Shown here one piece after another: positions 2,710 through 24,033 of a stretch of DNA of 33,961 bases. The stretch comes from a candidate division WOR-1 bacterium RIFOXYB2_FULL_37_13 (GTDB lineage: Bacteria; Margulisbacteria; WOR-1; XYC2-FULL-46-14; XYC2-FULL-37-10). The notes beneath the pieces are model-generated. The model did not search any database. It saw only the letters and a list, made by a program, of their open reading frames with translations, and was not told the origin of the DNA. How positions within the stretch are numbered: the first letter of the stretch is position 1; each line of letters opens with the position of its first letter. A program made the translations under genes and the position numbers. The stretch is from positions 1 to 33,961 of the forward strand of contig MEUB01000038.1 in assembly GCA_001771535.1 (NCBI GenBank). Reading direction: 5' to 3'.

Positions 2710-5700
2710 TTAATAATCAGATAAAGTATAAGCGCCTGTTAATTTAAGATAGCAACCTTTTGCCTGATAGTTTTGGCTTAAATCCGCACCACATGAAAAA
2801 TCAATAAAATTATATCCGCCAACGATTTGAAAGCCGTCGACGGGAGCATAGCCCAGTTCAAGCTGTGCTCCGCGCCTTGCATCAAGGCTTGTATTTTCCA
2901 ACAATAAGCGATATTCTCCCGCTATAAAAACCTGCTTAACCAAATTAAAAGAAACCCTGCCGGATATAATGTCAGCAGATGAAAAAACCTCCTGCGTGGA
3001 TAAAATATCCGTGTTGGTTTTTTGTGCAAACCTGCCTGATATTGTCCATCTATTGCCAGGCGTATAAATTATATTAAAGTCTGTTGAATTTTTTTTAGTG
3101 GAAGTTTGAGGTGTAACTAATTTATTGTCAGCTCCGCTTGCCGAAGCATTAAACAGCAAAGAAATTGAATCAAAAAAAACAGGTCTGTAAGCAAAGCTTA
3201 CCCAAGAGTTGTCAAGAGAAGACACAATGTTGCCCGTTTGTTTGTCCACATCCCAAGCCAAAGCGCTTTTACCGTAAAAATCTAAGTCGCAAAAAATTGG
3301 ATACGCTATCTCAACATCAGCAGTACTGTGAGTTTCAGCCGTTCCTGTTAAAGCCTGTTTTATGTTGTATTTAATTGCCCCCTTTTTGTTTTTTGAGCCC
3401 CCATATGAAACATCAACCCCAATAGTTGAATATTTTTCGTTGGTATTAGTTGCATAATCGATAGAATCTTGAAGCTTATAAGTTGCCGTAAAAGGTAGCT
3501 TTTCAACAAAACTAAATCCTATCCCAATTAAATTTGTATTTGTCTCTTTTAAAAGAGCAGAAGAGTTTTTGCTGTTCTTTCTTTCAGTGCCCCCCTCATA
3601 AAACGGTCTGATGACTCCAGATAAAATCGCCAGCTTATAATCATATCTATTTGTTAAAGCACTTGAGCTTAAATTTTTAAAGTCTGTCTCATCTTCGATT
3701 GCATAGTTAATATCTGCCCCTACTATCCATATTTTAGGAGATAAACCCAAAGAAATAGAAGTCGCAATAGAATCGATGCTTTTAAACGAATCCAAAGATT
3801 CTCGTTCAGTCTTATATTTTAATCCCCACAAATCATACTTAAGCAACGATGAAAAAGAATCATGAAAGGTAGTTCCTTTGTTTTGGTCATCTGAAATATT
3901 ATTCTTCCATTGCTTATAATCCGCAGTCAAATAAGATTTTTCATTTATTTTATATTCGGTATTTATGCCATATTCCTTTATGTCAGTACCTTTTGAGGGG
4001 GCATTGGTAGGATTATAGAATGAAAGCCCTGCCTGATATTGATAAAAATTCAATTTTAAATGTCTAATAGGCTTAATTGTTAATTGATTATAAAAACAGG
4101 AAGATTCACTGCTGCCCAAATTGTCGGCATATTCGCTTATAAAATTGGCATTGCTCCCTAATTTCAGGCTTGTATCAATCCCAAACAGCTTATACCCTCC
4201 AGACAAATGATCCTCACTAATGTAAGTTGTCCCAACAGAAATTAAATCTTTATGCCCTGTCTTCCCTCGCAAGCCATAAGTATAGTAGTTTTGTCCGTTT
4301 TGCGGCTTATATTCATAAAGTACGACTATATAATACTTATCTCCTGTTATATTTTCAGGAGTTATCGCTTTTTTAAATATTATAGATCCAGTATCATAAT
4401 TTATGCTGTAATCTGTATCTTTGGCCATGGAAACTGCCTTTATCACAGCATTCGGATAATCTTTTTCTCTTGTTTCAATTATAATCGTTTCACTCTCTTC
4501 CATGAGGGGAGCTTTTGATAAGTAGTAGGGGCCTGCCGTATCATTTGGAATAAGTTCATCTCTAACAGCAACTTGAGCGCTAAAAGCTCCAAAAAAATCG
4601 AACATGTTATTTTTCCCGTCATCTAAATAAGTCCTTAAGCCAAAAAGTTTACGGCTATATTTTGTAAATTCAGTGTCAGAAAGGGAAGGCGAAACATCAC
4701 CATATAAAATATAGTTTTTGTCTTTTTCCAAACGAACATACAACTTCTCTAGCCCGCGAAGTTCTTTGCCTAAAACACTGTCGTCTCCATAAATATAATA
4801 AGATTTATCAGGATCAATATTATCAAAAGAAATATCGGAATTATTCGCTGTATCCACAACCGAAGTTAATAACCAGTCTCCTTTTACTTTCCCTTTTAAA
4901 TAAAAAGCTGCCCTGCCATTTGTATAAAAAGGGGAGATATATTCCCCTCCTTCAGCTTTTGTAAAATTATCCATATTGCCTGTGGTTTGCAAGTATCCCG
5001 CCTGCATTTCAGATAAGGCGGCAAAAAAGAACCCTTCATCCTCGGATAAAATAGGCAGTTCCTCTAATTTGGAATGACTTATACCAAAACTCCCCTTTGT
5101 CAAACCTCCTTCAGGAAGGTACAAAATTTTTGAGGGAGAAACAACCGCGCCATAATTTATAGGAATTGTTTTTTTGTCTATCATTATTAGATGGTTTCCT
5201 GCTCTAACATTAGGGATTGAATATGCCCCATTATTATCGGTTATAACAAAAGTTCCATCTTCAGTGTAAATTTTAATTTTTGGAAGACCTATATCTCCTT
5301 TATCTTGAATATTATTGCCATTTAAGTCGTCAAAAACTTTGCCTATGATGGTTCCCCTTTTAGAAAAAATTCCTTCTTTTACATTGACGGTAGCAAAAAC
5401 AGGTCCGGCAGAAGAGGCTCCTTGTTCAGCCTGAAAAGTTACAGATGCTGAATTTTTTGCTATTCCAAAAGGAGTTCCAATGCCAACCAACGCCCGATAG
5501 GTCAATTCAATGCCTTCTCCCGAAGCTATAGTGCCAACATTCCATGACAAATTGCTTATGCCTGACGGATCATCAAAGGAAAAATTGTTCATCATTGTGC
5601 TCCCTGGCACATATTTAAACCCTTGAGGAAGAATATCGTTAATTTTGACTTCTTCCAATGAACCAATTCCTGTATTTTCCAAGGTAACGCCGTAAGTAAC

Positions 5701-6639
5701 TACATCCCCAATCTCCACAACCGAAGAGGAAAAGACTTTTTTGTTAATAAAGACAGAAGAAGAAGCATTTTGTTCACTATAAAGCCGTGTTGATAAATTG
5801 TTAACCTCAACCAGTCCTTTTGCAATTGTTATGATTGTTGATCCTACAATTCCGCTAATTTCATATAAATATTTGCCGTTTTTTACTATATTATGCAAAT
5901 CGGATGTTCCATCCCAGACAATATTGTACATTCCCGCCTTTTGCAAATTGTTTAAAGCTAAAGTTTTAATCAGGTTATTATTTTGATCAAAGATTTTGGC
6001 TGTTACAGCCGTATCCTGCGAAATCATGTAATATATTTGCGTAAAATCATTCACACCATCGCCATCAGGCGAAAAAGGATTGGGATAAGCGCCGGAAATG
6101 TCAATATTGGCAACTGAAGTATAAATTAAATCGGTTGTATAACTGCCTGGCTTATCCCTAAAATCAAGATTCACCTGATAATCAAAAATAAATCCTGCAG
6201 GAATTCCACTTGTTGGCGGCTGTAAAGCTACAAGCTGTTTTGGAGATAAGCTAACAGCTGTCCAATCCGCCTCTTTATTTGTTCCTGACTGTTTTATTTT
6301 TACCCGATTTATAGGAATTGTTTTTTTTGCGCCGGATGAGTTGTCAATTAAATCGCTATTTGCATTTACAGACAAATCCCAAGGAACATTGCTTGAAACA
6401 CAAATGCCTATTGCGGATTTTATTACATGCGGTTTTTTTGAAGGGATTATATTGTTTACGACCAACATTGGTTTTTCAGAAAAACCCTTTTCGTTTGGTG
6501 AAATGATGTCCAACAAAATAGAAGGGACAGAAAGATTATTTTCAAAAGGTTCCTGCGCAAAAGAAAATGAAACCGCAAAAATAAAAAAAATAGCGGCAAA
6601 AAACCAGAATTTACTTAACAAAAAAGACCGTGTTGGCAT
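2710..6639 (-). CDS. Giant outer-membrane barrel protein with subunit-like, FlgD-like, DUF11 and SdrD-B-like domains (usher-like candidate)
   Basis: 1309 residues from the ATG at 6639, chosen because a clear signal peptide (MPTRSFLLSKFWFF... to SFAQ) starts there and GGAAGAG lies about 11 bases upstream. The frame is open to 6708, so a longer start is possible. Approximate order: signal peptide 1-29; beta domain 35-180 containing CVSSNVPWDLSV and ending GSYTTDLIYTSV, which resembles the pilin-like subunits of this window; FlgD/CHU_C-type Ig domain 182-282 (AYPNPFSPDGDGVND); DUF11 295-422; SdrD B-like domain 430-520 (GKVFDDLNGNNIQDKGD); then about 770 residues of alternating strands ending in tyrosine, as expected for an outer-membrane barrel. 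The start overlaps the chaperone-like gene by 29 bases, so translation is probably coupled. A role as secretion pore or anchor for the neighbouring subunit is inferred. It might instead be a large adhesin. Confidence 0.8.
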   Translation of the reverse strand: MPTRSFLLSKFWFFAAIFFIFAVSFSFAQEPFENNLSVPSILLDIISPNEKGFSEKPMLVVNNIIPSKKPHVIKSAIGICVSSNVPWDLSVNANSDLIDNSSGAKKTIPINRVKIKQSGTNKEADWTAVSLSPKQLVALQPPTSGIPAGFIFDYQVNLDFRDKPGSYTTDLIYTSVANIDISGAYPNPFSPDGDGVNDFTQIYYMISQDTAVTAKIFDQNNNLIKTLALNNLQKAGMYNIVWDGTSDLHNIVKNGKYLYEISGIVGSTIITIAKGLVEVNNLSTRLYSEQNASSSVFINKKVFSSSVVEIGDVVTYGVTLENTGIGSLEEVKINDILPQGFKYVPGSTMMNNFSFDDPSGISNLSWNVGTIASGEGIELTYRALVGIGTPFGIAKNSASVTFQAEQGASSAGPVFATVNVKEGIFSKRGTIIGKVFDDLNGNNIQDKGDIGLPKIKIYTEDGTFVITDNNGAYSIPNVRAGNHLIMIDKKTIPINYGAVVSPSKILYLPEGGLTKGSFGISHSKLEELPILSEDEGFFFAALSEMQAGYLQTTGNMDNFTKAEGGEYISPFYTNGRAAFYLKGKVKGDWLLTSVVDTANNSDISFDNIDPDKSYYIYGDDSVLGKELRGLEKLYVRLEKDKNYILYGDVSPSLSDTEFTKYSRKLFGLRTYLDDGKNNMFDFFGAFSAQVAVRDELIPNDTAGPYYLSKAPLMEESETIIIETREKDYPNAVIKAVSMAKDTDYSINYDTGSIIFKKAITPENITGDKYYIVVLYEYKPQNGQNYYTYGLRGKTGHKDLISVGTTYISEDHLSGGYKLFGIDTSLKLGSNANFISEYADNLGSSESSCFYNQLTIKPIRHLKLNFYQYQAGLSFYNPTNAPSKGTDIKEYGINTEYKINEKSYLTADYKQWKNNISDDQNKGTTFHDSFSSLLKYDLWGLKYKTERESLDSFKSIDSIATSISLGLSPKIWIVGADINYAIEDETDFKNLSSSALTNRYDYKLAILSGVIRPFYEGGTERKNSKNSSALLKETNTNLIGIGFSFVEKLPFTATYKLQDSIDYATNTNEKYSTIGVDVSYGGSKNKKGAIKYNIKQALTGTAETHSTADVEIAYPIFCDLDFYGKSALAWDVDKQTGNIVSSLDNSWVSFAYRPVFFDSISLLFNASASGADNKLVTPQTSTKKNSTDFNIIYTPGNRWTISGRFAQKTNTDILSTQEVFSSADIISGRVSFNLVKQVFIAGEYRLLLENTSLDARRGAQLELGYAPVDGFQIVGGYNFIDFSCGADLSQNYQAKGCYLKLTGAYTLSDY

Positions 6640-8080
6640 TAGTAACTTTGTCTCTTCCATAAGAGATTGATGCCTCTGCTTTGTATAATCCCAAAGGAAG
6701 CTTGTCATCGCATGAAATTTTAACTTCTTTGCGAGTCTTTGGTTCTATATTATGATTAGGGATCAATAGTTCTTTAAATACCTTGTCTTCTTTTTTTATT
6801 TTAATTGTGCCACCAAACACAAGAGGGACATTTCCCTCATTTTCAAAATTAATGGAAAAGGCAACAGGCTGTCCACTTTTAACTATCTCTGCCGCAAATT
6901 TCACGATTTTTCCTTCTTTCACCACCGTCTGTTCAATTATTTCCAAATTACTCTCACTTACAACAGAAATAGGGTCTCCATAAACAATTTTTGCCAACGC
7001 TTTGTATTTGCCTATTATGATATCCTCTTCCAGTTCTCCTTTAACTTCTCCCGTGCCATAAGCATCAATCTTTATTGTATTTAAAGGGACAGAAGCAATC
7101 ATACCGCCAGCATCATTGTAAATTTCAACAACTCCGCCTGCATCAACTTTTGTATTGCCACAATTTCTCGCTGTTACAATAAAAGGAATTGGCTGTTTTT
7201 GTCTTATCTGCATGGAAGGAAACTTAATTATTTCAACTTTTTTAGCCTTTACATCATAAGCATCTAAAACAGAAAAAAGAGTTTCTCCTGAACTTAAAAT
7301 CTTTTTGTTGTCATTTGACGCTTCACACTTTACCGCATAGTCGCCTTTTGGCAAAACAGGCGGATCCCATATACCTTTCAGCCAATCTTCTTCCCCAGGA
7401 AGAATTGTCCCCCCTGACATATCCACCTTGCCAACCAAACCCCCGTTTTTATTATAAACAAAAGCTTTTCCTGAAACAGCAAGGTGGACATTGCCGTTAT
7501 TTTTAAAAAAGGCATAAATATCAACTGGTGAATTTTTGTCTTTTTGAACAACTTTTACTTTTGTTATTTTCCCTGACCAGTCCAACCCATGCGAAGAAAG
7601 AATTTTTGTTAATACGGCTACGCTGTTATTTTCTCCTTTTTGCCCCGAACCATATTCAAAAAACAAAGTAGCATAAAGCCCGCCTGTCCAGTCATAAGCA
7701 AGCGGTTTATTAAAAATAACTCGTACTTCACGGGCATCATCAGAGTTCAATAGGAAATTATTTGGTTCAATTTTTATGTATCTTACTCCACTGTAAATGC
7801 TTTCAGTCTTGTCATTAACAATATCCCCATTTGTTTGTTGGTTAGTTCCTGCTACGCGAATATTGACATTTATTGGGAAATTTCCGGTATTTGTTACAAC
7901 AACAGGCAAAGAAACATCCTCTTCATCCAAAATAAGCTCTATTTGGGCAGGGCTAATTTTCAACCCCGCCCAAACAATATTGGATAAAAAAGCCAAAAAA
8001 AACAAAACATACGCCGCATAAAAAGCTTTTCGGCTTTTCTGCCAACATAGATTGTAAAAAATGGATTTAAATAGTCTCAC
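6611..8080 (-). CDS. Periplasmic chaperone-like protein (DUF916/PapD-like), three beta domains
   Basis: 489 residues from a GTG at 8080; there is no ATG alternative before the signal peptide (hydrophobic about 20-37, ending VWA). The mature protein begins GLKISPAQIELIL, with NTGNFPINVNIRVAG and later FNKPLAYDWTGGLYATLFFEY, a pattern shared with the neighbour at 8092-9573 and the short protein at 14645-15127. This resembles PapD-type chaperone N-domains and DUF916. Two further Ig-like/CARDB-like domains follow, the last ending ASISYGRDKVTNANTVFFVK. The gene starts 11 bases after the preceding stop and overlaps the barrel gene, so it is part of a coupled operon. Binding and folding of secreted subunits is inferred; no function is proven by the sequence. 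It may be membrane-anchored if the signal is not cleaved. Confidence 0.7.
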   Translation of the reverse strand: MRLFKSIFYNLCWQKSRKAFYAAYVLFFLAFLSNIVWAGLKISPAQIELILDEEDVSLPVVVTNTGNFPINVNIRVAGTNQQTNGDIVNDKTESIYSGVRYIKIEPNNFLLNSDDAREVRVIFNKPLAYDWTGGLYATLFFEYGSGQKGENNSVAVLTKILSSHGLDWSGKITKVKVVQKDKNSPVDIYAFFKNNGNVHLAVSGKAFVYNKNGGLVGKVDMSGGTILPGEEDWLKGIWDPPVLPKGDYAVKCEASNDNKKILSSGETLFSVLDAYDVKAKKVEIIKFPSMQIRQKQPIPFIVTARNCGNTKVDAGGVVEIYNDAGGMIASVPLNTIKIDAYGTGEVKGELEEDIIIGKYKALAKIVYGDPISVVSESNLEIIEQTVVKEGKIVKFAAEIVKSGQPVAFSINFENEGNVPLVFGGTIKIKKEDKVFKELLIPNHNIEPKTRKEVKISCDDKLPLGLYKAEASISYGRDKVTNANTVFFVK

Positions 8081-8091
8081 TTTTTATGCCA

Positions 8092-9573
8092 TTACTTGCT
8101 TACAAAAAAGGATGTTTCTTTTGTTAAAACTTTTCCATCAGCATAAGAAATCATAGCATTTGCCTTATAAAGACCTGCCGGCAGATTGGCTTTCCAGCTA
8201 ATTGAAAAAACCTGTTCTTTTCCAGCCGCTATAACGGCTTGAGGAATAGCCATTTGCCCTGCTGTTGCTCCTGATCCTGTTTTTATTTCTATTATTCCTT
8301 CAGTGCTAAAAGGCACATTCCCTTGGTTTTTTATTGAAAACTTGGGGGATAAATTCCCTCCTGATTTTACTGAAGATATTGAAAATTCAGAGATAAGCCC
8401 CTTAATAATAGCAATTTTTTCAAGAACATCAAAATTAACATCAGCAAGCGCTTTTGTTTGTCCGCCATAGTCGACAGTCGCATTGGCAATATATCTCCCC
8501 ACAGGAAGACCCTCTTTATAGGTTCCTTTAAACGCGGTATTTTCGTTAGGAATCACAACACTCAAAGGCAACATTATTGTCCCAACTATCTTTTCATTTT
8601 CATCGACAAAATCAATTTTTGCCTCGGCATCTAAATTTATATTCCCGCTGTTATGAACAAGGAAATTAATGTCAAACGGTTGTTTTTTTGCCGCGACAGG
8701 CGCCCTAAAATTCAATATCTCTCCTCTTTTTACAGCAACTTCATTTTGAGCAATAACGGAAAACTTACCTGACGCAGAAGTCCCTTCTATTTCACTTTCA
8801 ATTGTATATTCTCCCGCAGAAAGAGAGGTTGTCTCCCAAATAGCTCTTAAATCTCTAACACCTCCAGGAAATATTTTTGCCGGTTCAACCGGAATATTTC
8901 CCAATAAATTTCCTGATGAATCTTTTATTTTGATAAAACCTGAAGGTAAAAAGTGAATATTTCCCGTATTTTCAACCGCGGAAAAAAATTCAATCGGAGC
9001 ATTAGCGCTTCTTTGAGCCACATAAACTTTATCAACTTTAGCGGTTTTAATTGTTTCTCCCGGTATTGTCATTTCGCTTATAATGCCTATTCTTGAAACA
9101 GCATCAACTCCGGCATTTCCTCCTGTTGACAAGTCGGACGACTTATCAACTTTTGATTCAAAAAATATTACAGCATAAAGACCGCCACCACTGTTCCCCT
9201 CTGGCTTATTAAATGTAGCCCTAACTATTTGTTCCTTTCCTCCTTCAACCGTAAACTCTTTTGGATTAAGTTCTATATTGGAAATACCAGAAAAAACTCC
9301 TCCGGTATTTGGCGCAAAATCAATTCCTCGCTCAAGAGTTTGAGTTAATCCCTCAACATAAATTTTTACTTGAACAGCAGTATCCCCCGTATTTTTAAAA
9401 GTTATAGGAATATCTTTACTGCTTTCAGTCAAAACAAGCTCAATTTTGGCAGGAGAAACGCCTATTCCGGCAAACGCTGTTCCAACTGCAAAGGTCAAAA
9501 AAGAAAAAACAAGGCTAACCATTAAGCAAACTGGCAAAAATTCATTCATTTTACTTTTTAATTTTATTAACAT
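8092..9573 (-). CDS. Periplasmic chaperone-like protein (DUF916/PapD-like), three beta domains
   Basis: 493 residues from the ATG at 9573, four bases after the subunit stop, with AAGGATGGTGAG just upstream. A TTG 33 bases further up is in frame but lies inside the subunit gene. The signal peptide ends near GTAFA. The mature N terminus GIGVSPAKIELVL, KNTGDTAVQVKIYVEGL and FNKPEGNSGGGLYAVIFFES match the same scaffold as the next gene. Domain 2 begins near residue 190, and the last domain ends SYADGKVLTKETSFFVSK, closely parallel to the neighbour. The two genes are probably an ancient tandem duplication. Placement directly after a subunit gene suggests a dedicated chaperone or scaffold; this is inference. 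Confidence 0.7.
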   Translation of the reverse strand: MLIKLKSKMNEFLPVCLMVSLVFSFLTFAVGTAFAGIGVSPAKIELVLTESSKDIPITFKNTGDTAVQVKIYVEGLTQTLERGIDFAPNTGGVFSGISNIELNPKEFTVEGGKEQIVRATFNKPEGNSGGGLYAVIFFESKVDKSSDLSTGGNAGVDAVSRIGIISEMTIPGETIKTAKVDKVYVAQRSANAPIEFFSAVENTGNIHFLPSGFIKIKDSSGNLLGNIPVEPAKIFPGGVRDLRAIWETTSLSAGEYTIESEIEGTSASGKFSVIAQNEVAVKRGEILNFRAPVAAKKQPFDINFLVHNSGNINLDAEAKIDFVDENEKIVGTIMLPLSVVIPNENTAFKGTYKEGLPVGRYIANATVDYGGQTKALADVNFDVLEKIAIIKGLISEFSISSVKSGGNLSPKFSIKNQGNVPFSTEGIIEIKTGSGATAGQMAIPQAVIAAGKEQVFSISWKANLPAGLYKANAMISYADGKVLTKETSFFVSK

Positions 9574-9577
9574 ACTC

Positions 9578-10084
9578 TCACCATCCTTGTACAACAGTAT
9601 AAACAATATTAATACGATACACGCGCCCTTGCGGCAATACAGGGTCAGAATATCTGACGGCTTGTTTGTATTTTACATATGTTGTTTCTCCGGGAGAAGG
9701 GATATTTGATACTACCACTTGCTCCATGGTAGAAATATTTGTATATAATGTATTGTCCTTTTCTTTAAACTGAAGGTTGTAATACAGCTTTTTTGGATTT
9801 GCTGTTACATAGCCAGTTCCGTCAAATTCCTGCATTCTTCCAGCCGCAACAGTATCACAATTTATCTTTATGCCATAGCTTTCGTTGCTATCTACAATAA
9901 CAGCCTGATTTGTTGAATAATTTGCTTCTCCAACTGTCATTGTCCAATTTAAATCAGCAGGGGTTGTAAGGATTAAATAAGGGCTAAATTGTACAATAAA
10001 ATGCTGTCCGCCATTACCAGCAAAACTAAATTCACAAAAAAAACATACCATACAAAAAATAGCGGATAATTTTACTTTAATCAA
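9578..10084 (-). CDS. Secreted pilin-like/WxL-like beta-sandwich subunit
   Basis: 168 residues from a TTG at 10084, which has GGAGG six bases upstream (10095-10091) and directly opens a signal peptide ending FSFAG. The mature protein shares a spaced pattern with the subunits at 14040 and 15218: LxTxP, a TVG segment, VxxSNxxYxIK, an M-x-x-F/Y-x-G-T-x-Y stretch, Q-x-V-x-Y-x-D, and a terminal strand (YRINIVYTVVQGW here, YHLVITYTAVQN there). Final strands of the form GxYxxxxxYTxV recall WxL domains and SCPU-type pilins. It is first in the coupled run subunit, chaperone-like, chaperone-like, barrel. Likely an exported structural subunit; polymerisation is not shown by the sequence. Confidence 0.7.
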   Translation of the reverse strand: MIKVKLSAIFCMVCFFCEFSFAGNGGQHFIVQFSPYLILTTPADLNWTMTVGEANYSTNQAVIVDSNESYGIKINCDTVAAGRMQEFDGTGYVTANPKKLYYNLQFKEKDNTLYTNISTMEQVVVSNIPSPGETTYVKYKQAVRYSDPVLPQGRVYRINIVYTVVQGW

Positions 10085-10124
10085 GCAATGCCTCCTGCTC
10101 TATCCATGCAAAAACCAAGAAATA

Positions 10125-10148
10125 AGAGGCAGGAATTAACCTGCCTCT
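10125..10148 (-). terminator. Hairpin after the SLH porin gene
   Basis: A perfect 9-bp stem AGAGGCAGG / CCTGCCTCT with a six-base loop lies 22 bases past the porin stop and upstream of the subunit ribosome-binding site. The U tract after it is short and interrupted, so it probably acts as a leaky terminator or mRNA stabiliser. Confidence 0.55.
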
Positions 10149-10170
10149 ATAAAATATTAATCAAAAACAA

Positions 10171-11370
10171 TTAGAACAATATTTGAGTCCTTAAAGCCGC
10201 CGAACTTGAAGTTGCGATGTTTGTTGTAGAAACACTATAATCAGCAAGCAATTTCACATTGCTATTCCAATCATAGTATCCACCAAAAGAAATATCAGTA
10301 ATGCTATCGCTGTCTACGCTTCGGTTTGGATCATATATATCCACGCGACCAAACACGCCAACAGGAGTCAGCATTTCATCAAGAACGCCAAGCTTGCAAA
10401 GCCCTGCTACGCTATAGCCAATGGCTCCTTTACCATAGCCGATCTCGGCATAAGCACTTACGACATCAGCTTTGTAAGCAACTAATACATTAGCAAGCTT
10501 GTTCCCAGTTGTACTATTGCCTACACCTTCAATCTGACCTCCAGCGCCAATTGTGATGCCTGGTAAAATTTCAGCATCAACTCTTGTGCCAATATCTTTC
10601 CCTGCATCTGTTTCTACTGCATTAAAGCCGTTGCCGTTTAATACTGTTGCAAGGTAGTTAATTTTTGGAAGCATATTCGTTGTTATACTTCCCATCGCAC
10701 TAACACCTGTATCAGCCGTTGGCTCACCATACCTGCCACCCATTAAGCTGACAGAAACAACACGAAGCCCCAAAATATCATCAACCCAATTTGACCAGTA
10801 AGTAGGCTGAACGCCAATTCTGGCATTCAAAGTAAAAGAATCAATAGCAACAACATTCAATAAATCAACATAAGCATATTTTACGAACTCCGTAGTAGTA
10901 CTGCCATCTAGGGTTACTCTGGCAATTGCATTGTTTCCAAGGGCTTTTTTTACTGTAAGATATGCGCGTGAAAGATTAAAGTTGTTTGTAATGCCTGTAT
11001 TCTGCAAGTTTTTCTGGTAGTTCAAAAAGACCTGCCCTGAAACCACGGCATCCGCAGGCAAAGAAGAATTTTTCGCCAGCACTTTATTTACAACTCTTTC
11101 TATGTCTGAATCTGTAATTTTGGGTTTAACATTGTTTTCTATGGATTTAGCCATTTTTGAAAGAAATTGAGCGGTCTCATATCGTGACAATTTCTCGTTT
11201 CCACGAAATGTACCGTCAGGAAACCCGTTTGTAATCTCTCTTTCAACTAAATCATAGACAGAATCTGCCGCCCAATGATCGTTGCCCATATCTCTAAATT
11301 TTTCCGCTGAAGCAGGCAAAGACAATGCCAAAGCAAAAAGAACCAATAATATCAGACCTTTTTTCATCAT
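10171..11370 (-). CDS. SLH-domain outer-membrane porin (OmpM-like)
   Basis: 399 residues from the ATG at 11370, chosen because AAAAGGAGT lies just upstream and the signal peptide (MMKKGLILLVLFALALS... ASA) begins there. An upstream in-frame ATG at 11418 would put a basic 16-residue extension before the signal. An SLH domain (about residues 23-80: FRDMGNDHWAADSVYDLVER, GFPDGTFRGNEKLSRYETAQF) is followed by a short helical linker and a barrel of alternating strands ending in LF-type hydrophobic residues (RTQILF). In diderm Terrabacteria such proteins tie the outer membrane to secondary cell-wall polymers and act as porins. It has its own promoter and a hairpin behind it, and probably a highly expressed transcript. 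Confidence 0.9.
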   Translation of the reverse strand: MMKKGLILLVLFALALSLPASAEKFRDMGNDHWAADSVYDLVEREITNGFPDGTFRGNEKLSRYETAQFLSKMAKSIENNVKPKITDSDIERVVNKVLAKNSSLPADAVVSGQVFLNYQKNLQNTGITNNFNLSRAYLTVKKALGNNAIARVTLDGSTTTEFVKYAYVDLLNVVAIDSFTLNARIGVQPTYWSNWVDDILGLRVVSVSLMGGRYGEPTADTGVSAMGSITTNMLPKINYLATVLNGNGFNAVETDAGKDIGTRVDAEILPGITIGAGGQIEGVGNSTTGNKLANVLVAYKADVVSAYAEIGYGKGAIGYSVAGLCKLGVLDEMLTPVGVFGRVDIYDPNRSVDSDSITDISFGGYYDWNSNVKLLADYSVSTTNIATSSSAALRTQILF

Positions 11371-11401
11371 TTTACTCCTTTTAATTTTAAAACTTAAAAA
11401 C

Positions 11402-11428
11402 CTAAATCCCCTTTTCATCTTTTTTCAT
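11402..11428 (-). other. Possible eight-codon leader ORF before the porin gene
   Basis: The best ribosome-binding site of this transcript, AAGGAGGTG (11439-11431), sits directly before an ATG at 11428 that encodes only MKKDEKGI and a stop. It is 14 bases from the in-frame ATG at 11418 and far from the likely porin start at 11370, which has its own AGGAG. A leader peptide or a standby ribosome-loading site is possible. Confidence 0.35.
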
Positions 11429-11486
11429 TTCACCTCCTTGTTTTTAAAAAAATCTTAGGTTGATTGAAATGTAAAATTTTGTGATA

Positions 11487-11516
11487 TTGTAACAAAAAAA
11501 AACGCTCCTTGTCCAG
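11487..11516 (-). promoter_or_regulatory. Sigma70-like promoter of the SLH porin gene
   Basis: On the minus strand TGGACA (11516-11511) and TACAAT (11492-11487) are 18 bases apart. The predicted start near 11480 gives a leader of about 110 bases before the porin ATG at 11370. Confidence 0.55.
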
Positions 11517-11540
11517 CTCCAAATAAATTCAAATAAATTG

Positions 11541-11569
11541 TTGACAATATTCTGCTTTATCTATACAAT
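11541..11569 (+). promoter_or_regulatory. Strong sigma70-like promoter immediately upstream of the glycosyltransferase
   Basis: A consensus TTGACA (11541-11546), a 17-base spacer and TACAAT (11564-11569) precede the gene. The start point expected six to eight bases later coincides with the ATG at 11576, so the mRNA would be leaderless. No Shine-Dalgarno sequence lies before that ATG. Confidence 0.7.
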
Positions 11570-11575
11570 TTCAGC

Positions 11576-13138
11576 ATGCAAGTTAAACCAAGCACTAAAA
11601 GTGTTGTTGTATTTATACTACTTGTATGCGCAATCCTTTTGTTTTCTAGAATTTTTCAAGCCGATGCCTTTACCCAAAACGAAGCAATCCACGGCAATAA
11701 TGGCGTTATGATATGGAAAAGCCTTGTAACTTTTGACTGGCAATCTTTTTGGTATAGCACCAATCAGCAGGTGTCTTCTTCTTTTTTGCATTCATGGCTT
11801 GAATCTTTTATTTTTCTAATTCTTGGGATTAGTTTTACTTCTGCAAGGATTTTGAGCCTGGTTTTATTTTTTATTCTTGCCTTATTGCTTTATCATATGC
11901 CTATAAGCCTTAATTTAAAACATGGCAAATTCATAGGGTTGGCATCGCTTACTTTTTTGCTTACTTCTCCCGAAGCTGTAAAATATGCGACTCAAAATTC
12001 TACAGAAACATTGGGTGTTCTAATTTTTCTTGCCGCCGCGTATTTTTACGCCGTTGCGGAAGAAAGCAACTTGTTTTCTCACTATATTATAGTAGGCTTG
12101 CTTTTAGGCCTTTCAATTTATACTGATTACATATATGCATATCTCATTTTGGTCTCATTTTCAATAATCATCACTGCCAAAATGACAGGAGCTGTTGTCG
12201 AAACGATATATTTAATAAGAAAAGGAGAACAAAATGCTTTTCCTTTTTACTGGTGGATGTATAAAAAACTGACAATCCTTGCGATTGCCATTTTATCGGC
12301 TTCTGTTTGGTTTTTTTCGGGCTTCTTTTCCAGAAAAGTTCATATGTTTTTTTCAACTGTTTTCGGAGACTTTTCAGCGGACATAGCATTTACAGGTTTG
12401 TTGAATAATTTGTTCTTTTATCCAAAATGGATTGCCCAAAATTTTAGCTTCTCTCCTGTGATAGGGATTATTCTTTTGTTCTCAATCATTTCGCCTCTTG
12501 CTTTTTATAAGGACAAAAAAATAAGAATATATTATTTATTTTGCTGGATATCTTTATTTCTCCTTGTTTTTTCCGTAGGAGACAAGGCTCCTTCCATGGT
12601 TTACGCCATAACGCCTTTTATTTTTATTATTTTTTCCGCAAACATCATTTATTTATTTGAGACCAATAAAAAAATGGCTACTGTTTTTACTTCGGCGATT
12701 TTAATCATATCCGTAGCTTACCTGCCAAATCTTTTTAAAGCCTACTTTCCTGAACAGCCTTCTGTTAAAGCAAAAACTGTTCTTGATTTTTTTTATAAAA
12801 ATATTCCTGCAGATCATTCTTTTGCCACCTCGCTTAATTTTTCTAGATTGAATGCGGATATAATAAACTTTTATTTTTACAACTGGAAAGCTCCAATATT
12901 ATCTGACCTTTCCTATCCTTTGGAGTCTACCCCCTCGGACTGCCAATATTATGCAACCATAGAATTAGCCAATGAGAGCTTGTATAATCACGATTCAAAT
13001 GGAGTGCAGTCAATAATACAATTAAATCAAATGCTGGAATACGAAGAAAAATCAGGAGAAATAAAACTGTTTGCCAGTAAAAATTTTGGTAATAAACTTA
13101 CCGCCAAAATATACGCAAAGGCAAGAATTTCACTATGA
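11576..13138 (+). CDS. GT-C fold membrane glycosyltransferase (GT39/PMT_2-like)
   Basis: 520 residues with about ten to twelve hydrophobic segments. The first (residues 9-25) is followed by a loop with QADAFTQNEAIHGNNG, resembling the acidic catalytic motif after helix 1 of protein mannosyltransferases and ArnT-like enzymes. The C-terminal 110 residues are soluble and presumably periplasmic. GT-C enzymes transfer sugars from polyprenyl-phosphate donors to lipid or protein acceptors on the outer face of the inner membrane. The acceptor here is unknown; the surrounding secreted subunits are possible targets, but that is inference. The gene is transcribed divergently from the SLH porin and seems leaderless. 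The next gene has its own promoter. Confidence 0.7.
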   Translation: MQVKPSTKSVVVFILLVCAILLFSRIFQADAFTQNEAIHGNNGVMIWKSLVTFDWQSFWYSTNQQVSSSFLHSWLESFIFLILGISFTSARILSLVLFFILALLLYHMPISLNLKHGKFIGLASLTFLLTSPEAVKYATQNSTETLGVLIFLAAAYFYAVAEESNLFSHYIIVGLLLGLSIYTDYIYAYLILVSFSIIITAKMTGAVVETIYLIRKGEQNAFPFYWWMYKKLTILAIAILSASVWFFSGFFSRKVHMFFSTVFGDFSADIAFTGLLNNLFFYPKWIAQNFSFSPVIGIILLFSIISPLAFYKDKKIRIYYLFCWISLFLLVFSVGDKAPSMVYAITPFIFIIFSANIIYLFETNKKMATVFTSAILIISVAYLPNLFKAYFPEQPSVKAKTVLDFFYKNIPADHSFATSLNFSRLNADIINFYFYNWKAPILSDLSYPLESTPSDCQYYATIELANESLYNHDSNGVQSIIQLNQMLEYEEKSGEIKLFASKNFGNKLTAKIYAKARISL

Positions 13139-13161
13139 TGTTTGTAAAGATAAAAAAGGTG

Positions 13162-13190
13162 TTGACAATTTCAAGTTTTTTGCGTATTCT
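13162..13190 (+). promoter_or_regulatory. Sigma70-like promoter of the small outer-membrane protein gene
   Basis: TTGACA (13162-13167), a 17-base spacer and TATTCT (13185-13190) lie upstream. The start near 13197 precedes AAGGAG (13213-13218) and the ATG at 13233. Confidence 0.65.
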
Positions 13191-13232
13191 TACCAGCGAT
13201 TAGATAAATAAAAAGGAGTTGGGTTTATTGCC

Positions 13233-13970
13233 ATGAGCAAAATAAAAAAATTTCCAACCGCTTTGATTCTGGTTTTAACTTTTCTTTTTTTTGCGGGTTC
13301 TTCTGCTTCCTCTCAAAGCAAGACAGTCAAAAAAACAATCAAAAAAGTCATACAGCCTGAAATAGCTCCAGTTGCACCACCTGAATCTCTGGACGAAGAA
13401 AAAATCTTTCCTGAAGTCTCCGCCCCACCCGAACCTCCCATAGAAGAATACAAAGTTAAATCAGAGCCAAAAGGGCTTTGGGGTTTAGGATTAAATACCA
13501 CCTGCGGAGGATCATATTTATTCAATTTAAAAGGGCAACAAGGATTGCTTGGGGCGTTATCAATGAGATGGGACATTGTGTTTGGCGATCCATGGTCAAC
13601 AGGATCAAAAATAGGGCTGGCAGAAGATGCGGTTGAATACAAAGCAGGGTTAGGCTATTCAATGGGAAGCGGGACTGATGATCAACCTATAAATGCGATT
13701 CCGTTGTATGTCGATGCAATTATATATTTAAAAGAAGGTTCTTTATTTGGAATGGATCCGTTTATCGGGTTTGGGTTAAATTTTAATTTAATAGGAAGAG
13801 ATGGAAAATCGGGCAATTTAGGCGGGCAGGTCTACGGCGGAATTCTCGCAAATTTTGGGCTTGGAGGAAAAACCGAGTTTTCTATCGGCTATCAGTCTAT
13901 GAAAATTGGAGACGGAGTACCATCGGCAAACGGAATAATATTTTCTGTGGCACATCCGTTTGTTTTATAA
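13233..13970 (+). CDS. Small outer-membrane beta-barrel protein with proline-rich linker
   Basis: 245 residues. A signal peptide (hydrophobic 8-24, SSASS) is followed by a lysine-rich stretch (KTVKKTIKKV), then a proline- and glutamate-rich linker to about residue 75 (APVAPPESL, APPEPPIEE), then about 165 residues of glycine-rich alternating strands ending VAHPFVL, as in eight-stranded barrels. The basic-then-proline segment could cross or contact the peptidoglycan. I recognise no specific family. A palindromic terminator follows. The ribosome-binding site AAGGAG is rather far (14 bases) from the ATG, but no other start is in frame. Confidence 0.65.
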   Translation: MSKIKKFPTALILVLTFLFFAGSSASSQSKTVKKTIKKVIQPEIAPVAPPESLDEEKIFPEVSAPPEPPIEEYKVKSEPKGLWGLGLNTTCGGSYLFNLKGQQGLLGALSMRWDIVFGDPWSTGSKIGLAEDAVEYKAGLGYSMGSGTDDQPINAIPLYVDAIIYLKEGSLFGMDPFIGFGLNFNLIGRDGKSGNLGGQVYGGILANFGLGGKTEFSIGYQSMKIGDGVPSANGIIFSVAHPFVL

Positions 13971-13984
13971 ATTAAATTTTACTT

Positions 13985-14012
13985 TTAAAGGCATATGCCT
14001 TTAATTTTTATT
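13985..14012 (+). terminator. Palindromic terminator between barrel gene and subunit gene
   Basis: A perfect 20-bp palindrome, TTAAAGGCATATGCCTTTAA (13985-14004), is followed by a T-rich run, the usual form of an intrinsic terminator. The subunit gene's ribosome-binding site starts only about 17 bases later, so transcription of that gene needs read-through or a promoter inside the upstream gene. Confidence 0.65.
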
Positions 14013-14039
14013 TTTTTTAAAAAAGGAGGTGAACAAAAA

Positions 14040-14540
14040 ATGAAAAAAATTTCACTTTTATTGGTGGCATTGCTTTTTGTCTTTGCTATATCAACAAGCA
14101 CTCTTGCTGATACCTCAAGTTCTGGAAACCAGGCAGTTGACACCAACCTTGTACCTGCTCTGGAAATGACCGCGCCAAGCGCTACTACTCTTTCCAACCT
14201 TACAGTTGGAACCAACAGCGATCTTGGACTTGGAAACTTAGTTGTTAGCAGTAATGCTCCTTATACTATTAAGTATCATGTTGATAAAACCCATATGACA
14301 AAGTATGCGGGCACAGACTATACTACCGCTACTGCGTTGATAAATGTCATGTCATTGATGGGTGGAGATGCCAGCTATGCAACTGTTTCAACGACCGATC
14401 AGAATTTAAAGACAGATTGCGGAGTTGAGAATGGAGCATCGTTCCCTATAGCTGCAAAGCAGGTAGTTGATTATGCAGATAAGGCTTTAGCTTCTGGGGT
14501 TTACCATTTAGTCATAACTTATACTGCTGTACAGAATTAG
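14040..14540 (+). CDS. Secreted pilin-like/WxL-like subunit, copy 1
   Basis: 166 residues from the ATG at 14040, preceded by AAAGGAGGTGA. A longer frame to 13995 overlaps the terminator and is unlikely. The signal peptide (MKKISLLLVALLFVFAISTS) ends near TLA. The mature protein has LEMTAPSATTL, VVSSNAPYTIKYHVD, MTKYAGTDY, QVVDYADKA and a final strand YHLVITYTAVQN. The same pattern appears in the subunits at 9578 and 15218 and, in part, in the N-terminal domain of the giant barrel protein. It is 167 residues in copy 2, with long identical blocks. A strong ribosome-binding site and a following hairpin suggest high expression. Structural role inferred. Confidence 0.75.
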   Translation: MKKISLLLVALLFVFAISTSTLADTSSSGNQAVDTNLVPALEMTAPSATTLSNLTVGTNSDLGLGNLVVSSNAPYTIKYHVDKTHMTKYAGTDYTTATALINVMSLMGGDASYATVSTTDQNLKTDCGVENGASFPIAAKQVVDYADKALASGVYHLVITYTAVQN

Positions 14541-14571
14541 TTAAGTATTGTTTTTGTTATCTGTTATTGGA

Positions 14572-14614
14572 GTATAGGTATACTTAGATTGGAGGTGTAC
14601 CTATACTTTTTTAT
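14572..14614 (+). terminator. Terminator/attenuator hairpin after subunit copy 1
   Basis: A 13-bp stem, AGTATAGGTATAC (14572-14584) with GTGTACCTATACT (14596-14608), includes one G-U pair, has an 11-base loop, and is followed by TTTTT. The same hairpin occurs after copy 2. It lies before the chaperone-like gene and could lower that gene's expression relative to the subunit. Confidence 0.7.
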
Positions 14615-14644
14615 AAAAAGTGTTAGAGAAGGAGGTGTAATAAA

Positions 14645-15127
14645 GTGAAATTAAATACCATTGGGAAATTCATCTTCCTTGGCGTATTTTTGATTGTCCT
14701 GCAAACTTTTGCCTCCGCAGGATTAAGAGTTATGCCAAGCACAGTTGATGTAAAATTCGGGAAGAAGCCTATTGCTGAAACTTTGATGTTGAAAAATACA
14801 GGTGGAGAATCGTTAATGATCAAAGCTTATGTAATGGGACTTGCAAAAAACAAAAAAGGAGACTGGGTGTTTACCGACCCTGTAACAAAAAATTATAATC
14901 TTAATAAGTATGTCACAATTTCCAGATCTTCGTTTGTTTTAAACGCAGATCAGGAATCAAAAGTAATTGTTAATGTAAAAAAACCCAAATATTATTCAGG
15001 CAAATTTCAATGTGTAGTCTTTTTTGAAAACTATCCTTTAGAAAAAACTGAAGTTGATACTTCAGCTCAAATGCAGACTTTAGTAGAAATACACGGCAGA
15101 CTTGGAGTAATTTTCAAGGAAAAGTAG
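14645..15127 (+). CDS. One-domain chaperone-like protein (PapD N-domain/DUF916-like)
   Basis: 160 residues from a GTG at 14645 with AAGGAGGT eight bases upstream. The signal peptide ends near FASA. The mature protein (GLRVMPSTVDVKF, LKNTGGESLMIKAYVMGLAK, then ISRSSFVLNADQESKVIVNV and CVVFFENYP) matches the first domain of the two large proteins at 6611-8080 and 8092-9573 but lacks their two further domains. Pro, NTG and FFE landmarks are conserved in all three. Its place between two subunit genes suggests a dedicated chaperone. The PapD-specific C-terminal domain is absent, so the mechanism would differ from classical donor-strand chaperones. Confidence 0.65.
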   Translation: MKLNTIGKFIFLGVFLIVLQTFASAGLRVMPSTVDVKFGKKPIAETLMLKNTGGESLMIKAYVMGLAKNKKGDWVFTDPVTKNYNLNKYVTISRSSFVLNADQESKVIVNVKKPKYYSGKFQCVVFFENYPLEKTEVDTSAQMQTLVEIHGRLGVIFKEK

Positions 15128-15148
15128 ATTTTATTTGGCGATCTAAAG

Positions 15149-15187
15149 ACGGGAGTAATAAAATGTTATTGTTATTCCCGTTTTTTT
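15149..15187 (+). terminator. Intrinsic terminator after the one-domain chaperone-like gene
   Basis: ACGGGAGTAATA (15149-15160) pairs with TGTTATTCCCGT (15170-15181), with two G-U pairs and a nine-base loop, followed by a run of T. Confidence 0.75.
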
Positions 15188-15217
15188 AGATGAATAAAAA
15201 GGAGGAGAATGAAACAA

Positions 15218-15721
15218 ATGAAAAAAACTTTAATTTTATTGGTAGCATTGTTTTTTGTCTTTGCTATATCAACAAGCACTCTTGCTGATACCTCAAGTTC
15301 TGGAAACCAGGCAGTTGATACAAACCTTGTACCTGCCCTAGAAATGACCGCTCCAAGTGCTACTACTCTTGATACTCTTCAGGTTGACGGCGATAATGAA
15401 TTTTTGCTTGGGAATCTAGTTGTCAGTAGCAATGCTCCTTATACCATTAAGTATCATGTTGATAAAACCCATATGACAAAGTATGCGGGCACAGACTATA
15501 CTACCGCTACTGCGTTGATAAATGTCATGTCATTGATTGGTGGGGATGTCGGAGATTTTGCAACCGTTGCTACAACCGATCAGAATTTAAAGACAAATTG
15601 TACAGTTGAAAATGGAGCTACATGGTCTATAAGCGGACATCAAGTAGTTGATTATGCTGATAAGGTATTGACTGATGGGGCTTACCATCTGGTTATTACC
15701 TATACAGCCGTGCAGAATTAG
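15218..15721 (+). CDS. Secreted pilin-like/WxL-like subunit, copy 2
   Basis: 167 residues from the ATG at 15218, which corresponds to the start of copy 1 (MKKTLILLVALFFVFAISTS). An ATG nine bases earlier is only three bases from the GGAGG and less likely. Long stretches are identical to copy 1, including a 92-bp exact block (15446-15537), whereas residues about 51-64, 108-117 and 125-140 differ strongly. The final strand YHLVITYTAVQN is unchanged. The duplicated unit includes the 3' hairpin. Probably an alternative or partner subunit of the same fibre; inferred. Confidence 0.75.
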   Translation: MKKTLILLVALFFVFAISTSTLADTSSSGNQAVDTNLVPALEMTAPSATTLDTLQVDGDNEFLLGNLVVSSNAPYTIKYHVDKTHMTKYAGTDYTTATALINVMSLIGGDVGDFATVATTDQNLKTNCTVENGATWSISGHQVVDYADKVLTDGAYHLVITYTAVQN

Positions 15722-15752
15722 TTGAGTCTTGTTTTTTGTTGTCTATTATTGG

Positions 15753-15795
15753 AGTATAGGTATACTTAGACTGGAGGTGTACCTATACTCTTTTA
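15753..15795 (+). terminator. Terminator hairpin after subunit copy 2
   Basis: The same 13-bp stem as at 14572 (15753-15765 with 15777-15789) with a loop differing by one base, followed by CTTTTAT. It is a weaker U tract than in copy 1. Confidence 0.65.
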
Positions 15796-15876: not shown

Positions 15877-16359
15877 ATGCTAAAGCCTTTGGTTCTTGTT
15901 GTTGATGATGAAGTAGACCTTAATAATGACATTGTAGAATCAATAAACAAATCAAATAAAAAATATGAAGCTATTAGCGCGTATTCTGCAGAAGAGGCTT
16001 TGTCCTCGCTTGAAAAGCATAAAGTATGTTTTGGCTTAGGAAGAAATTGCATACGATTTGTCGTCCTTGATATAAAGATGCCGGGGATGAACGGATTGGA
16101 ATTGCTTGAAACATTAAGAGAAAAATACAAAGAGAACATAGGGGTTGTCATGCTTACAGCATGGGAAGATAAAGAAAAATGGGACAAAGCTACCGCAGGG
16201 TTTGTTGTCAACTATCTTGTCAAACCTTTTGACCCTGCAAAACTCATTGAAATATTAGATCGTTTTTTTGAAGGTGAGGAAGAGCGAATGATCGTTGAAA
16301 CCTTTGAAAAACATATCGAAAAAGATAAGAAATACGAAAATCCTGCTTCATCTTCTTGA
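15877..16359 (+). CDS. Single-domain response regulator (receiver only)
   Basis: 160 residues. The receiver has acidic residues D10/D11 (VVDDE), phosphoacceptor D65 (VVLDIKMPGMNG), T94 (MLTAWED) and K116 (VKPFD). The domain ends near 132, and the remaining residues form a charged tail with no DNA-binding or enzymatic domain. An insertion before the phosphoacceptor strand (HKVCFGLGRNCIRF) is shared with the paralogue at 29787-30275, which also has the TAWED motif, so the two probably act in the same chemosensory/pilus pathway. It is the only plus-strand gene of that group and overlaps the convergent NAGPA gene by 12 bases at its 3' end. Confidence 0.85.
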   Translation: MLKPLVLVVDDEVDLNNDIVESINKSNKKYEAISAYSAEEALSSLEKHKVCFGLGRNCIRFVVLDIKMPGMNGLELLETLREKYKENIGVVMLTAWEDKEKWDKATAGFVVNYLVKPFDPAKLIEILDRFFEGEEERMIVETFEKHIEKDKKYENPASSS

Positions 16360-17898
16360 TTGAGGCTCAAACAAAATCGCGTTGCTTATTTTTCTTTGCG
16401 CGCCGCCTGAAGGAGTATTTTTTATTTTCCCGCGCACAACCATAGTGCTTGATCCCCCTCCGTCCAGATTTAAAGCGGACACAGCACCCAATGCTTTTAA
16501 AAAATAAGCCGCTTCTGTAAGAGACATTCCTATGCTATGACCCTCCCCCCTTTCCTTTTCTCTTTTTTTTCTTTTTAGTTTCCCATCAACTGTCACAAAC
16601 AATAAAGCTCCATCGTTTTTTATTCCGACTATTGTACGCGCCGCTCTCCCTCTTGCCACATCTGCCCTAAAGTTTTCCTCCTGTTTTGTAATATAAATTT
16701 CGCCATTTTTTATAAGCCTTGGTCCCCCACCGATAAGATGCAAAAACGATTCCGTCGTCGCGGAAACATTTAAAAAAGGTACTACATTAACAGCAACTTT
16801 CACTTTATCTTCTTTTTTTGCATTCAAAAATAAAAGCTCTGAAAGCTCCATTCCCGCAGATAAAACATACCCATTGGAAGGTATAAGCGAATTGCCGCAT
16901 TCAAAAGATACAACAACATCGTTTACAACAATAATATTAAAATCATCAGGTTCTGTATCAGTAACAACTCCATAGTAAGGAGTGTACAAAACGATATCTT
17001 TTTTTGGGGCCTTTTTTTCATTTATTCCCATTATTGGATATTTAGTAGCATTTATTTCAAAATAAGCATCCAGTGCGACATTGTCTATATAGGCTCTATG
17101 ATCGCTTGTTAAAATCAACGCAGTGCGGTCAAAAATCGGGCAGGAGATCACATTTTTGTTTATCATCAATATTCCAAGAGGCAAGCCGGATTTCAAAAAA
17201 TATGTTCCATTAATCCCTGCTATCGCATTATTTTGCAGGGCAATTCTTGAAGTTGTAGCAGGATAAAAACCGGATTGCTTTTCTTTTGTCCACGGATTAA
17301 AAAATTTCAACACCGAATAGATAAAAGCTCCTTCTGGCTCTCCTATAGCAGGAAAAACATCAATTTTTTTTGGGTCAACTTCAAGAACTTGGGCTAAAAC
17401 CAACTTATCGTCAACAGCTTTTGTAATATCATAATAATCCAACCCTTCGCAAATTTGTTCATTGTTTTTTACTTGTATAATCGTCCGTTCAAAATCAATA
17501 ATCAGCCTATCAGGAAGACTTAACGAGAAAATTTTATAAGCAAGACCATGTTTTAAGGGTACCCGTAATAAAAGACCACTTTCATAAGAAGTTATTTCAA
17601 TTTGTTTAACAGTAAAATCATTTATATCAAAACTATTTTGGATATTTTCTCCGTTCTTTACATTGAAAAGATAAATATCAATTTCGTTTTCCAATGATTC
17701 AACATTATAATAAGCTGTCCCGTCAAAATCGAGCGCGATCTTCAACCTATCAGGCTCGCTTAGGCGAATATTGTGTAAAATAGCAGAAGTTTCATATGTT
17801 AATTGTTTGCTCGATAAAACAGGAGCATCTGCTGTAGCCTTTAAAGTAAAAGAAAAACACATCAAACTCATTATAACGGTCAAAATACATTTGTTCAT
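16348..17898 (-). CDS. AMIN-domain phosphodiester glycosidase (NAGPA family)
   Basis: 516 residues with a signal peptide (ends near TADA). Residues about 30-135 resemble an AMIN domain (repeated LRVPLKHG, SLPDRLIIDF), which binds peptidoglycan. The C-terminal half is a NAGPA domain: AGINGTYF, RAARTIVGIKNDGALLFVTVDG, and ALNLDGGGSSTMVVRGK near the end, the characteristic LDGGGSS signature. Members cleave phosphodiester-linked sugars, and periplasmic cell-wall glycopolymer processing is likely. It is last in the pilus gene run, 42 bases after the secretin. The short secretin lacks an AMIN domain, so this protein could supply the peptidoglycan contact; that is inference. Confidence 0.85.
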   Translation of the reverse strand: MNKCILTVIMSLMCFSFTLKATADAPVLSSKQLTYETSAILHNIRLSEPDRLKIALDFDGTAYYNVESLENEIDIYLFNVKNGENIQNSFDINDFTVKQIEITSYESGLLLRVPLKHGLAYKIFSLSLPDRLIIDFERTIIQVKNNEQICEGLDYYDITKAVDDKLVLAQVLEVDPKKIDVFPAIGEPEGAFIYSVLKFFNPWTKEKQSGFYPATTSRIALQNNAIAGINGTYFLKSGLPLGILMINKNVISCPIFDRTALILTSDHRAYIDNVALDAYFEINATKYPIMGINEKKAPKKDIVLYTPYYGVVTDTEPDDFNIIVVNDVVVSFECGNSLIPSNGYVLSAGMELSELLFLNAKKEDKVKVAVNVVPFLNVSATTESFLHLIGGGPRLIKNGEIYITKQEENFRADVARGRAARTIVGIKNDGALLFVTVDGKLKRKKREKERGEGHSIGMSLTEAAYFLKALGAVSALNLDGGGSSTMVVRGKIKNTPSGGAQRKISNAILFEPQSRR

Positions 17899-17940
17899 TT
17901 CAAAATGATTAAAATTTAAAGCATTTTCATTTTTTGGCTT

Positions 17941-19059: not shown

Positions 19060-19077
19060 GCAAACGCAACTCCTTTT

Positions 19078-21143: not shown

Positions 21144-21174
21144 ATATGACACTTTTTTATTGTTTTACAGTCAA

Positions 21175-21203
21175 AGTTTACAATAGAATGAAACAAGTTG
21201 CAA
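21175..21203 (-). promoter_or_regulatory. Possible weak internal promoter before pilM-pilN
   Basis: In the 62-base gap after the PilX-like gene, TTGCAA (21203-21198) and TAAACT (21180-21175) are 17 bases apart on the minus strand. The -10 element is poor, so support is weak. Confidence 0.25.
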
Positions 21204-21214
21204 TTGATTTTTGG

Positions 21215-23127: not shown

Positions 23128-23129
23128 AT

Positions 23130-24010: not shown

Positions 24011-24033
24011 AAAAACCGCCTTCTATTGCAAAC

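Follow-up and report, generated by a model that had tools for sequence, protein, structure and literature searches.

The usher of chaperone-usher pili has an N-terminal domain, a central region and C-terminal beta-sandwich domains. In the WxL clusters of Firmicutes, small and large WxL proteins occur with WxLIP (DUF916-DUF3324), which has a C-terminal transmembrane helix and whose DUF916 domain is predicted by AlphaFold to insert a strand into WxL (PMC10599100). Strand complementation is also used by archaeal threads (PMC9715654). A survey of attachment traits in the Omnitrophota reported type IV pili, Tad pili and giant open reading frames (ORFs), and its text contains none of the terms 'usher', 'fimbri' or 'chaperone' (PMC10066038). 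Here we describe a system of small secreted subunits, chaperone-like proteins and one giant predicted outer-membrane protein (the barrel protein) in a 33,961-base stretch of DNA, called the window, which is an entire contig of a Candidatus Margulisiibacteriota member (genome 1.79 Mb, 96.7% complete). We propose, with a probability of about 0.6, that it is a chaperone-assisted, donor-strand-type assembly of a surface fibre or short surface polymer in diderms, with an outer-membrane component that is not an usher. No published description of this system was found in the open-access literature, which leaves out most subscription papers.

The ORFs named in a preliminary description of this DNA are all present where it placed them. 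The first four genes (barrel, chapA, chapB and sub1, all on the minus strand) overlap or almost abut, in agreement with its claim that a TTG-start subunit, two chaperones and a barrel are coupled. The second locus, sub2-chapC-sub3, lies 4 kb away on the plus strand. The features are listed below with the evidence for each; relatives in other genomes are called sisters, HMM stands for hidden Markov model and Ig for immunoglobulin.

2710..6708, minus strand: whole barrel protein gene, 1332 residues from the first ATG, the likely start being an internal ATG that gives 1309 residues (ORF and domain calls)
6094..6555, minus strand: N-terminal subunit-like domain fused to the barrel protein, residues ~52-205 (sister-subunit HMM, Smith-Waterman alignment with sub3, hhalign)
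5854..6045, minus strand: FlgD Ig-like domain of the barrel protein (Pfam PF13860, E=8.9e-8)
5434..5742, minus strand: DUF11 domain of the barrel protein (Pfam PF01345, E=2.8e-13)
5089..5355, minus strand: SdrD_B-like domain of the barrel protein, residues ~452-540 (homology to a sister barrel; Pfam match below cut-off)
2713..5031, minus strand: predicted outer-membrane beta-barrel region, residues ~560-1332 of the 1332-residue protein (hhalign to a ruvC-linked barrel family)
6611..8080, minus strand: chapA, WxLIP/EcpB-related chaperone-like protein of 489 residues with a PGBD-like domain and further Ig-like domains (homology; family-level PDB profile matches)
8092..9606, minus strand: chapB, paralogue of chapA, 504 residues, four beta domains (AlphaFold model; homologues in the phylum)
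9578..10084, minus strand: sub1, small secreted subunit with a TTG start, homologous to sub2 and sub3, C-terminal YRINIVYTVVQ
14040..14540, plus strand: sub2, small secreted subunit (homology to sub1 and sub3)
14645..15127, plus strand: chapC, one-domain chaperone-like protein, domain 1 only (chapA at E=2e-12; sister chaperones down to 3e-9)
15218..15721, plus strand: sub3, near-duplicate of sub2, 80% identity in alignment A6 (AlphaFold model, Foldseek list)

The chaperone family is homologous to WxLIP and to EcpB. A profile of 32 members was searched against 177,635 PDB sequences, and just two matches were significant: EfmWxLIP1, a WxL-interacting protein, at E=3.2e-7 across both domains, and EcpB of E. 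coli at E=1e-4. PF06030 (WxLIP_PGBD) was the Pfam family matched by the most members (12/32, best 2.5e-5), always under its curated cut-off in the phylum search. PF11797 (WxLIP_HBD) was matched by 2/32 members (best 3.1e-5) and PF00345 (PapD_N) by 1/32 at E<=0.1 (0.0028). With the fim and ecp regions of E. coli K-12 as a yardstick, hhalign scored EcpB at 96.5 over 156 columns, EcpE at 57 and FimC at 7.8. The family HMM matched EcpB at E=2.3e-5 (Z=4300) and left FimC unmatched. A profile of sisters, built without the window sequences, still reached 91.5 with EcpB (reversed-profile control, 0.2).

The window chaperones fall firmly within this family (hhalign 99.7 with the sister chaperones, E=2e-26). 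chapA and chapB match each other at E=8e-62. All three proteins contain the NTG and FFE landmarks noticed earlier, and N72, F148, F149 and E150 are invariant in alignment A7. The two long proteins had been taken for three-domain chaperones; the AlphaFold model of chapB (pLDDT 78, pTM 0.40) shows four beta domains instead, and chapA has the same by alignment. Foldseek with the whole chapB model returned tandem-Ig ciliary proteins, complement and transglutaminases, and was not discriminating. No membrane-anchor segment was seen in the seven diderm members checked, which include chapA, chapB and chapC (maximum hydropathy <=1.2). One sister chaperone (L057:6287-7090) has an N-terminal lipoprotein motif, unlike most relatives.

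Gene order around the chaperone is conserved in two phyla. The chaperone family was found in 19/74 Margulisiibacteriota genomes (E<=0.01) and in 68/193 sampled Omnitrophota genomes (E<=1e-15). The collection scan used the narrower alignment A3, since A2 offered no sufficiently conserved stretch. Among main-type diderm loci with enough flanking sequence to be testable, a barrel-family gene follows the chaperone in 37/37, directly in 35 and past one subunit-like gene in two. It is the next gene in all 17 Margulisiibacteriota loci, from 10 genera, one being a truncated N-terminus at a contig end. All 20 Omnitrophota loci have it as well (18 direct, two with one subunit-like gene between). These counts are inflated by kinship, as L063-L067 and L103 belong to one genus. 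Upstream of the chaperone there is usually a gene that fits the subunit profile. The refuting condition named earlier, genes that are not kept together, failed when tested on relatives. Omnitrophota clusters also encode proteins of 445-510 residues with a C-terminal subunit domain, and in L176 three subunit-like repeats were read. The window locus is a divergent form of the system. A second, divergent chaperone subfamily in Margulisiibacteriota (L111-L115) has FlgD_ig, CIA30 or CBM_11-like proteins as neighbours, and no barrel-profile match was seen downstream of it.

The giant protein was first described as a 1309-residue barrel. The gene is real, but the protein is modular: a subunit-like domain is followed by FlgD_ig, DUF11 and SdrD_B-like domains and then by the barrel region. 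When an HMM was made solely with subunits from other genomes, its best match among 581 ORFs was the N-terminal domain (E=1e-4), ahead of sub1, sub2 and sub3 themselves. The same domain aligned with sub3 (Smith-Waterman 53 vs 28.6+-4.7 for shuffled sequences, 0/1000); its alignment with sub1 did not exceed all of 1000 shuffles. Alone it matched the sister subunits at an hhalign probability of 74 over 87 columns, with negatives at noise. The SdrD_B-like domain is 35% identical to the SdrD_B domain of an Omnitrophota sister barrel, L118:11589-14573 (E=6e-12). In the source genome the sister-barrel profile matched this domain at 5104-5361 (E=1e-19), while its remaining matches, on two other contigs, were N-terminal and weak (5e-6 at best). 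Pfam SdrD_B scored 25.2 bits on the window barrel, under the cut-off of 29.7. Among 25 sister barrels, at E<=1, SdrD_B was listed for 23 and T2SS-T3SS_pil_N (pil_N) for 20.

Support for the identity of the barrel region is weaker than that for the chaperone. The region is nearest to proteins of ~1000 residues that adjoin ruvC in the same class (hhalign probability 97.9), and these in turn align with the sister barrels at 85.9 over 330 columns. Two of these ruvC-linked relatives have weak OMP_b-brl matches (5e-5 and 1.6e-4), which lend weak support to an outer-membrane barrel, and beta alternation in the region was modestly above shuffles in a crude test. The ruvC-linked family (L034-L045) is outer-membrane-like and present in many of the class's genomes, mostly beside ruvC-ruvA; a search for an annotated function gave none. 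No usher homology of the barrels was detected: PF00577 was absent from the families listed for the sister barrels (E<=1) and for the window barrel, and hhalign of the barrels with FimD and EcpC gave 0.2-0.3, no match.

The three subunits end in YxxxIxYTxVQ, and the homology claimed for them goes beyond shuffles (sub1 vs sub2, Smith-Waterman 111 vs 31.7+-5.5, 0/1000). A profile of the window subunits matched exactly four places in its own genome: sub1, sub2, sub3 and the N-terminus of the barrel protein. Elsewhere it matched one subunit in G044 (1.1e-5); a match in L126 was judged to be chance, having an in-frame stop and unrelated surrounding genes. The chaperone profile matched the three chaperones. 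In all, four subunit-type domains, three chaperones and one barrel of the window kind were found in the 96.7%-complete genome, every one on the window contig, and therefore the two loci probably share one barrel. As a set and without signal peptides, sub1-3 matched the sister subunits at an hhalign probability of 87 over 34 C-terminal columns, with negatives at noise; an earlier value of 97.7 was discounted because signal peptides were included. The window subunits are tied to their sister counterparts less strongly than the window chaperones are to theirs.

The subunit fold is likewise less strongly supported. An AlphaFold2 model of sub3 from a 17-sequence alignment (pLDDT 71, pTM 0.58) is all beta except for the signal helix. 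The head of its Foldseek list is rich in donor-strand fibre subunits (CS17, CfaB, the pilin domains of PapG and FimH, Csu, Caf1, SafA and the Sulfolobus thread), and the list also has the Pyrodictium cannula. The model therefore suggests a resemblance to donor-strand fibre subunits. A PDB profile search with the subunits returned noise (IL-18, PapG lectin), and Pfam SCPU, DUF4402 and SEF14 reached just 0.004-0.014 in a few members. The preliminary description had seen a diderm relative of WxL/DUF916 clusters. That relation holds for the chaperone; subunits as WxL proteins were not supported, since the WxL domain PF13731 was found in 0/74 genomes of the phylum at E<=0.1 while a Lactococcus control was positive.

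Chaperones of this kind also occur in presumed one-membrane organisms. In L121, L123 and L124, two Actinomycetota and one 'bacterium', a WxLIP-like chaperone carries a C-terminal hydrophobic segment (KD 2.4-3.4). Subunit-like genes adjoin the chaperone in L121 and L123, and no barrel-profile match was seen beside it at these two loci. This suggests a shared subunit-plus-chaperone module that would be helix-anchored in one-membrane cells and barrel-paired in two-membrane cells, with a putative evolutionary step between the two.

Several observations weigh against a donor-strand assembly. The window chaperones alone reach just probability 14 with EcpB. In some genera (among them L063-L066, L104, L105, L109 and L174) the gene upstream of the chaperone gives a weak match to the subunit profile or none. 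Taken singly and without signal peptides, sub1, sub2 and sub3 gave no match to the sister subunits, so that the link depends on the set, the barrel N-terminal domain and the one G044 subunit. The fold comparison proposed earlier as a check on relatedness showed a resemblance to fibre subunits at moderate model confidence, but no Foldseek match of sub3 fell below 1e-3 and the list also contains unrelated beta-sandwich proteins (an esterase, CBMs and a birnavirus capsid). The barrel status of the window protein derives from homology and weak matches. It lacks pil_N and carries additional domains on the N-terminal side of the barrel. The closest relatives of its barrel region are the ruvC-linked proteins, and no chaperone match was present at those of their loci that were inspected. 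No full-length match to the window protein was found in its class, where only FlgD_ig and the ruvC-linked region were matched, and a pattern scan of contigs for full-length relatives was empty.

Three other explanations were weighed. The system might be a WxL-like surface complex instead of a fibre. The Ig-domain proteins would then be permanent partners that pin the subunits to peptidoglycan or to the surface of the cell, and the barrel would be an outer-membrane anchor in place of the Gram-positive membrane helix. We regard this as unlikely. In its favour, the chaperone is nearest to WxLIP in sequence, chapA and chapB carry two extra Ig-like domains, the L057 chaperone has its lipoprotein motif, and the actinomycetotal relatives combine a hydrophobic C-terminal anchor segment with no adjoining barrel match. 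However, no WxL profile matches the subunits, the other significant relative of the chaperone is the pilus chaperone EcpB, the nearest list of the subunit model is rich in donor-strand pilins, and a recurrent, dedicated barrel with a pil_N domain suggests a role in export or assembly.

A true chaperone-usher pilus that has diverged very far, with the barrel as a diverged usher, is improbable. The subunit-chaperone-barrel order of such operons, the relation to EcpB and the usher-like arrangement of the sister barrels (an N-terminal domain, a central region of ~500 residues and C-terminal beta-sandwich domains) speak for it. The missing PF00577, the hhalign values with FimD and EcpC, and the presence in sister barrels of pil_N, to our knowledge no usher feature, speak against it. 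It is very improbable that the secreted Ig-like proteins are unrelated neighbours of an ordinary outer-membrane protein and share no function with it. Ig-like domains are widespread, and the family closest to the barrel region is found without chaperones, but this explanation is largely refuted by the synteny in two phyla; the window genes also overlap in one direction, and the barrel protein carries a subunit-like domain.

For the preferred reading, a donor-strand-type surface assembly, we infer the fibre itself, its polymerisation and assembly, the secretion route and the function as follows. Subunits would enter the periplasm by Sec and be capped by the two-Ig-domain chaperone of WxLIP/EcpB type, the same kind of step as the predicted insertion of a DUF916 strand into WxL (PMC10599100). 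They would then polymerise by donor-strand-like complementation, at or through a dedicated outer-membrane protein that exports or anchors them. Through its N-terminal subunit-like domain the window barrel protein may be delivered by the chaperone, the domain serving the polymer as its base or anchor. Further subunits would come from the second locus. Attachment is the probable role. Several sister clusters have carbohydrate-binding-like neighbour proteins, and the G002 and G044 clusters have GH26 and sugar ABC transporter genes nearby, which would suggest attachment to glycans or plant fibre there. At L057:2080-4526 and L060:651-8006, GH26+CBM9 and glycan-binding-like proteins precede the fibre clusters, with sugar ABC transporter genes upstream.

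Other genes of the window were read from their translations or domain matches. Just upstream of sub1, 10171-11418 encodes an SLH-domain porin-like protein (SLH and a weak match to an iron-uptake porin model), which agrees with tethering of the outer membrane through SLH proteins. The stretch 16348-32932 has genes resembling those of type IV pili and type II secretion (secretin, PilM, pilins, GspF and GspE) and, after them, a chemosensory cluster (CheA, CheW, MCP, CheB and CheY-like). A transposase-like fragment lies downstream of the barrel gene at 1415-1969; a compositional break at the locus was sought in the GC profile and none was seen. A small secreted protein of 245 residues (13233-13970) has a relative with 59% identity in a second genus of the same family (L035:5373-6152), where no fibre genes were seen within the stretch examined.

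Judged from the sequences, the system is related to WxL/WxLIP clusters and chaperone-usher pili and tests as a member of neither. At slightly less than even odds, we suggest that it is an undescribed third class of chaperone-dependent surface fibre, present in Omnitrophota and Margulisiibacteriota. This class would have an outer-membrane assembly protein of its own that is not an usher, and a chaperone that bridges WxL/WxLIP and chaperone-usher systems; both of these would derive from one ancestral subunit-plus-chaperone module that acquired a different partner for export or anchoring in each. By sequence, WxL/WxLIP, a Gram-positive surface system whose function is debated, is tied here to pilus chaperones, and two uncultured phyla add a candidate system for fibre assembly at the outer membrane that has no usher. 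This may link two surface systems so far studied apart, and the idea that donor-strand chaperones hold WxL proteins becomes testable.

Among more distant systems, the archaeal thread Saci_0406 and the Pyrodictium cannula share with this one a place in the Foldseek list of sub3; we know of no chaperone-barrel set for either. The TasA/TapA fibres of Gram-positive bacteria resemble it in combining a strand-complementation fibre with a helper protein (PMC9674648, PMC10151520), but belong to a single-membrane organism and showed no sequence relation in this analysis. Chaperone-usher pili, of which the E. coli common pilus is nearest, have a chaperone (EcpB) homologous across both domains, subunits that the sub3 model resembles and the same order of subunit, chaperone and barrel. 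They differ in the outer-membrane protein, which has no detectable usher relation here and carries pil_N and SdrD_B in the sisters, and a subunit-like domain with FlgD_ig, DUF11 and SdrD_B in the window. Unlike WxL clusters, this system has no detected WxL domain (PF13731, 74 phylum genomes), its checked diderm members lack a membrane-anchor segment and a large outer-membrane protein belongs to the set. Like WxL clusters, it has a homologous two-Ig-domain partner protein, small and large subunit proteins within one cluster in Omnitrophota and, among its actinomycetotal relatives, the hydrophobic C-terminal segment that WxLIP also has (PMC10599100).

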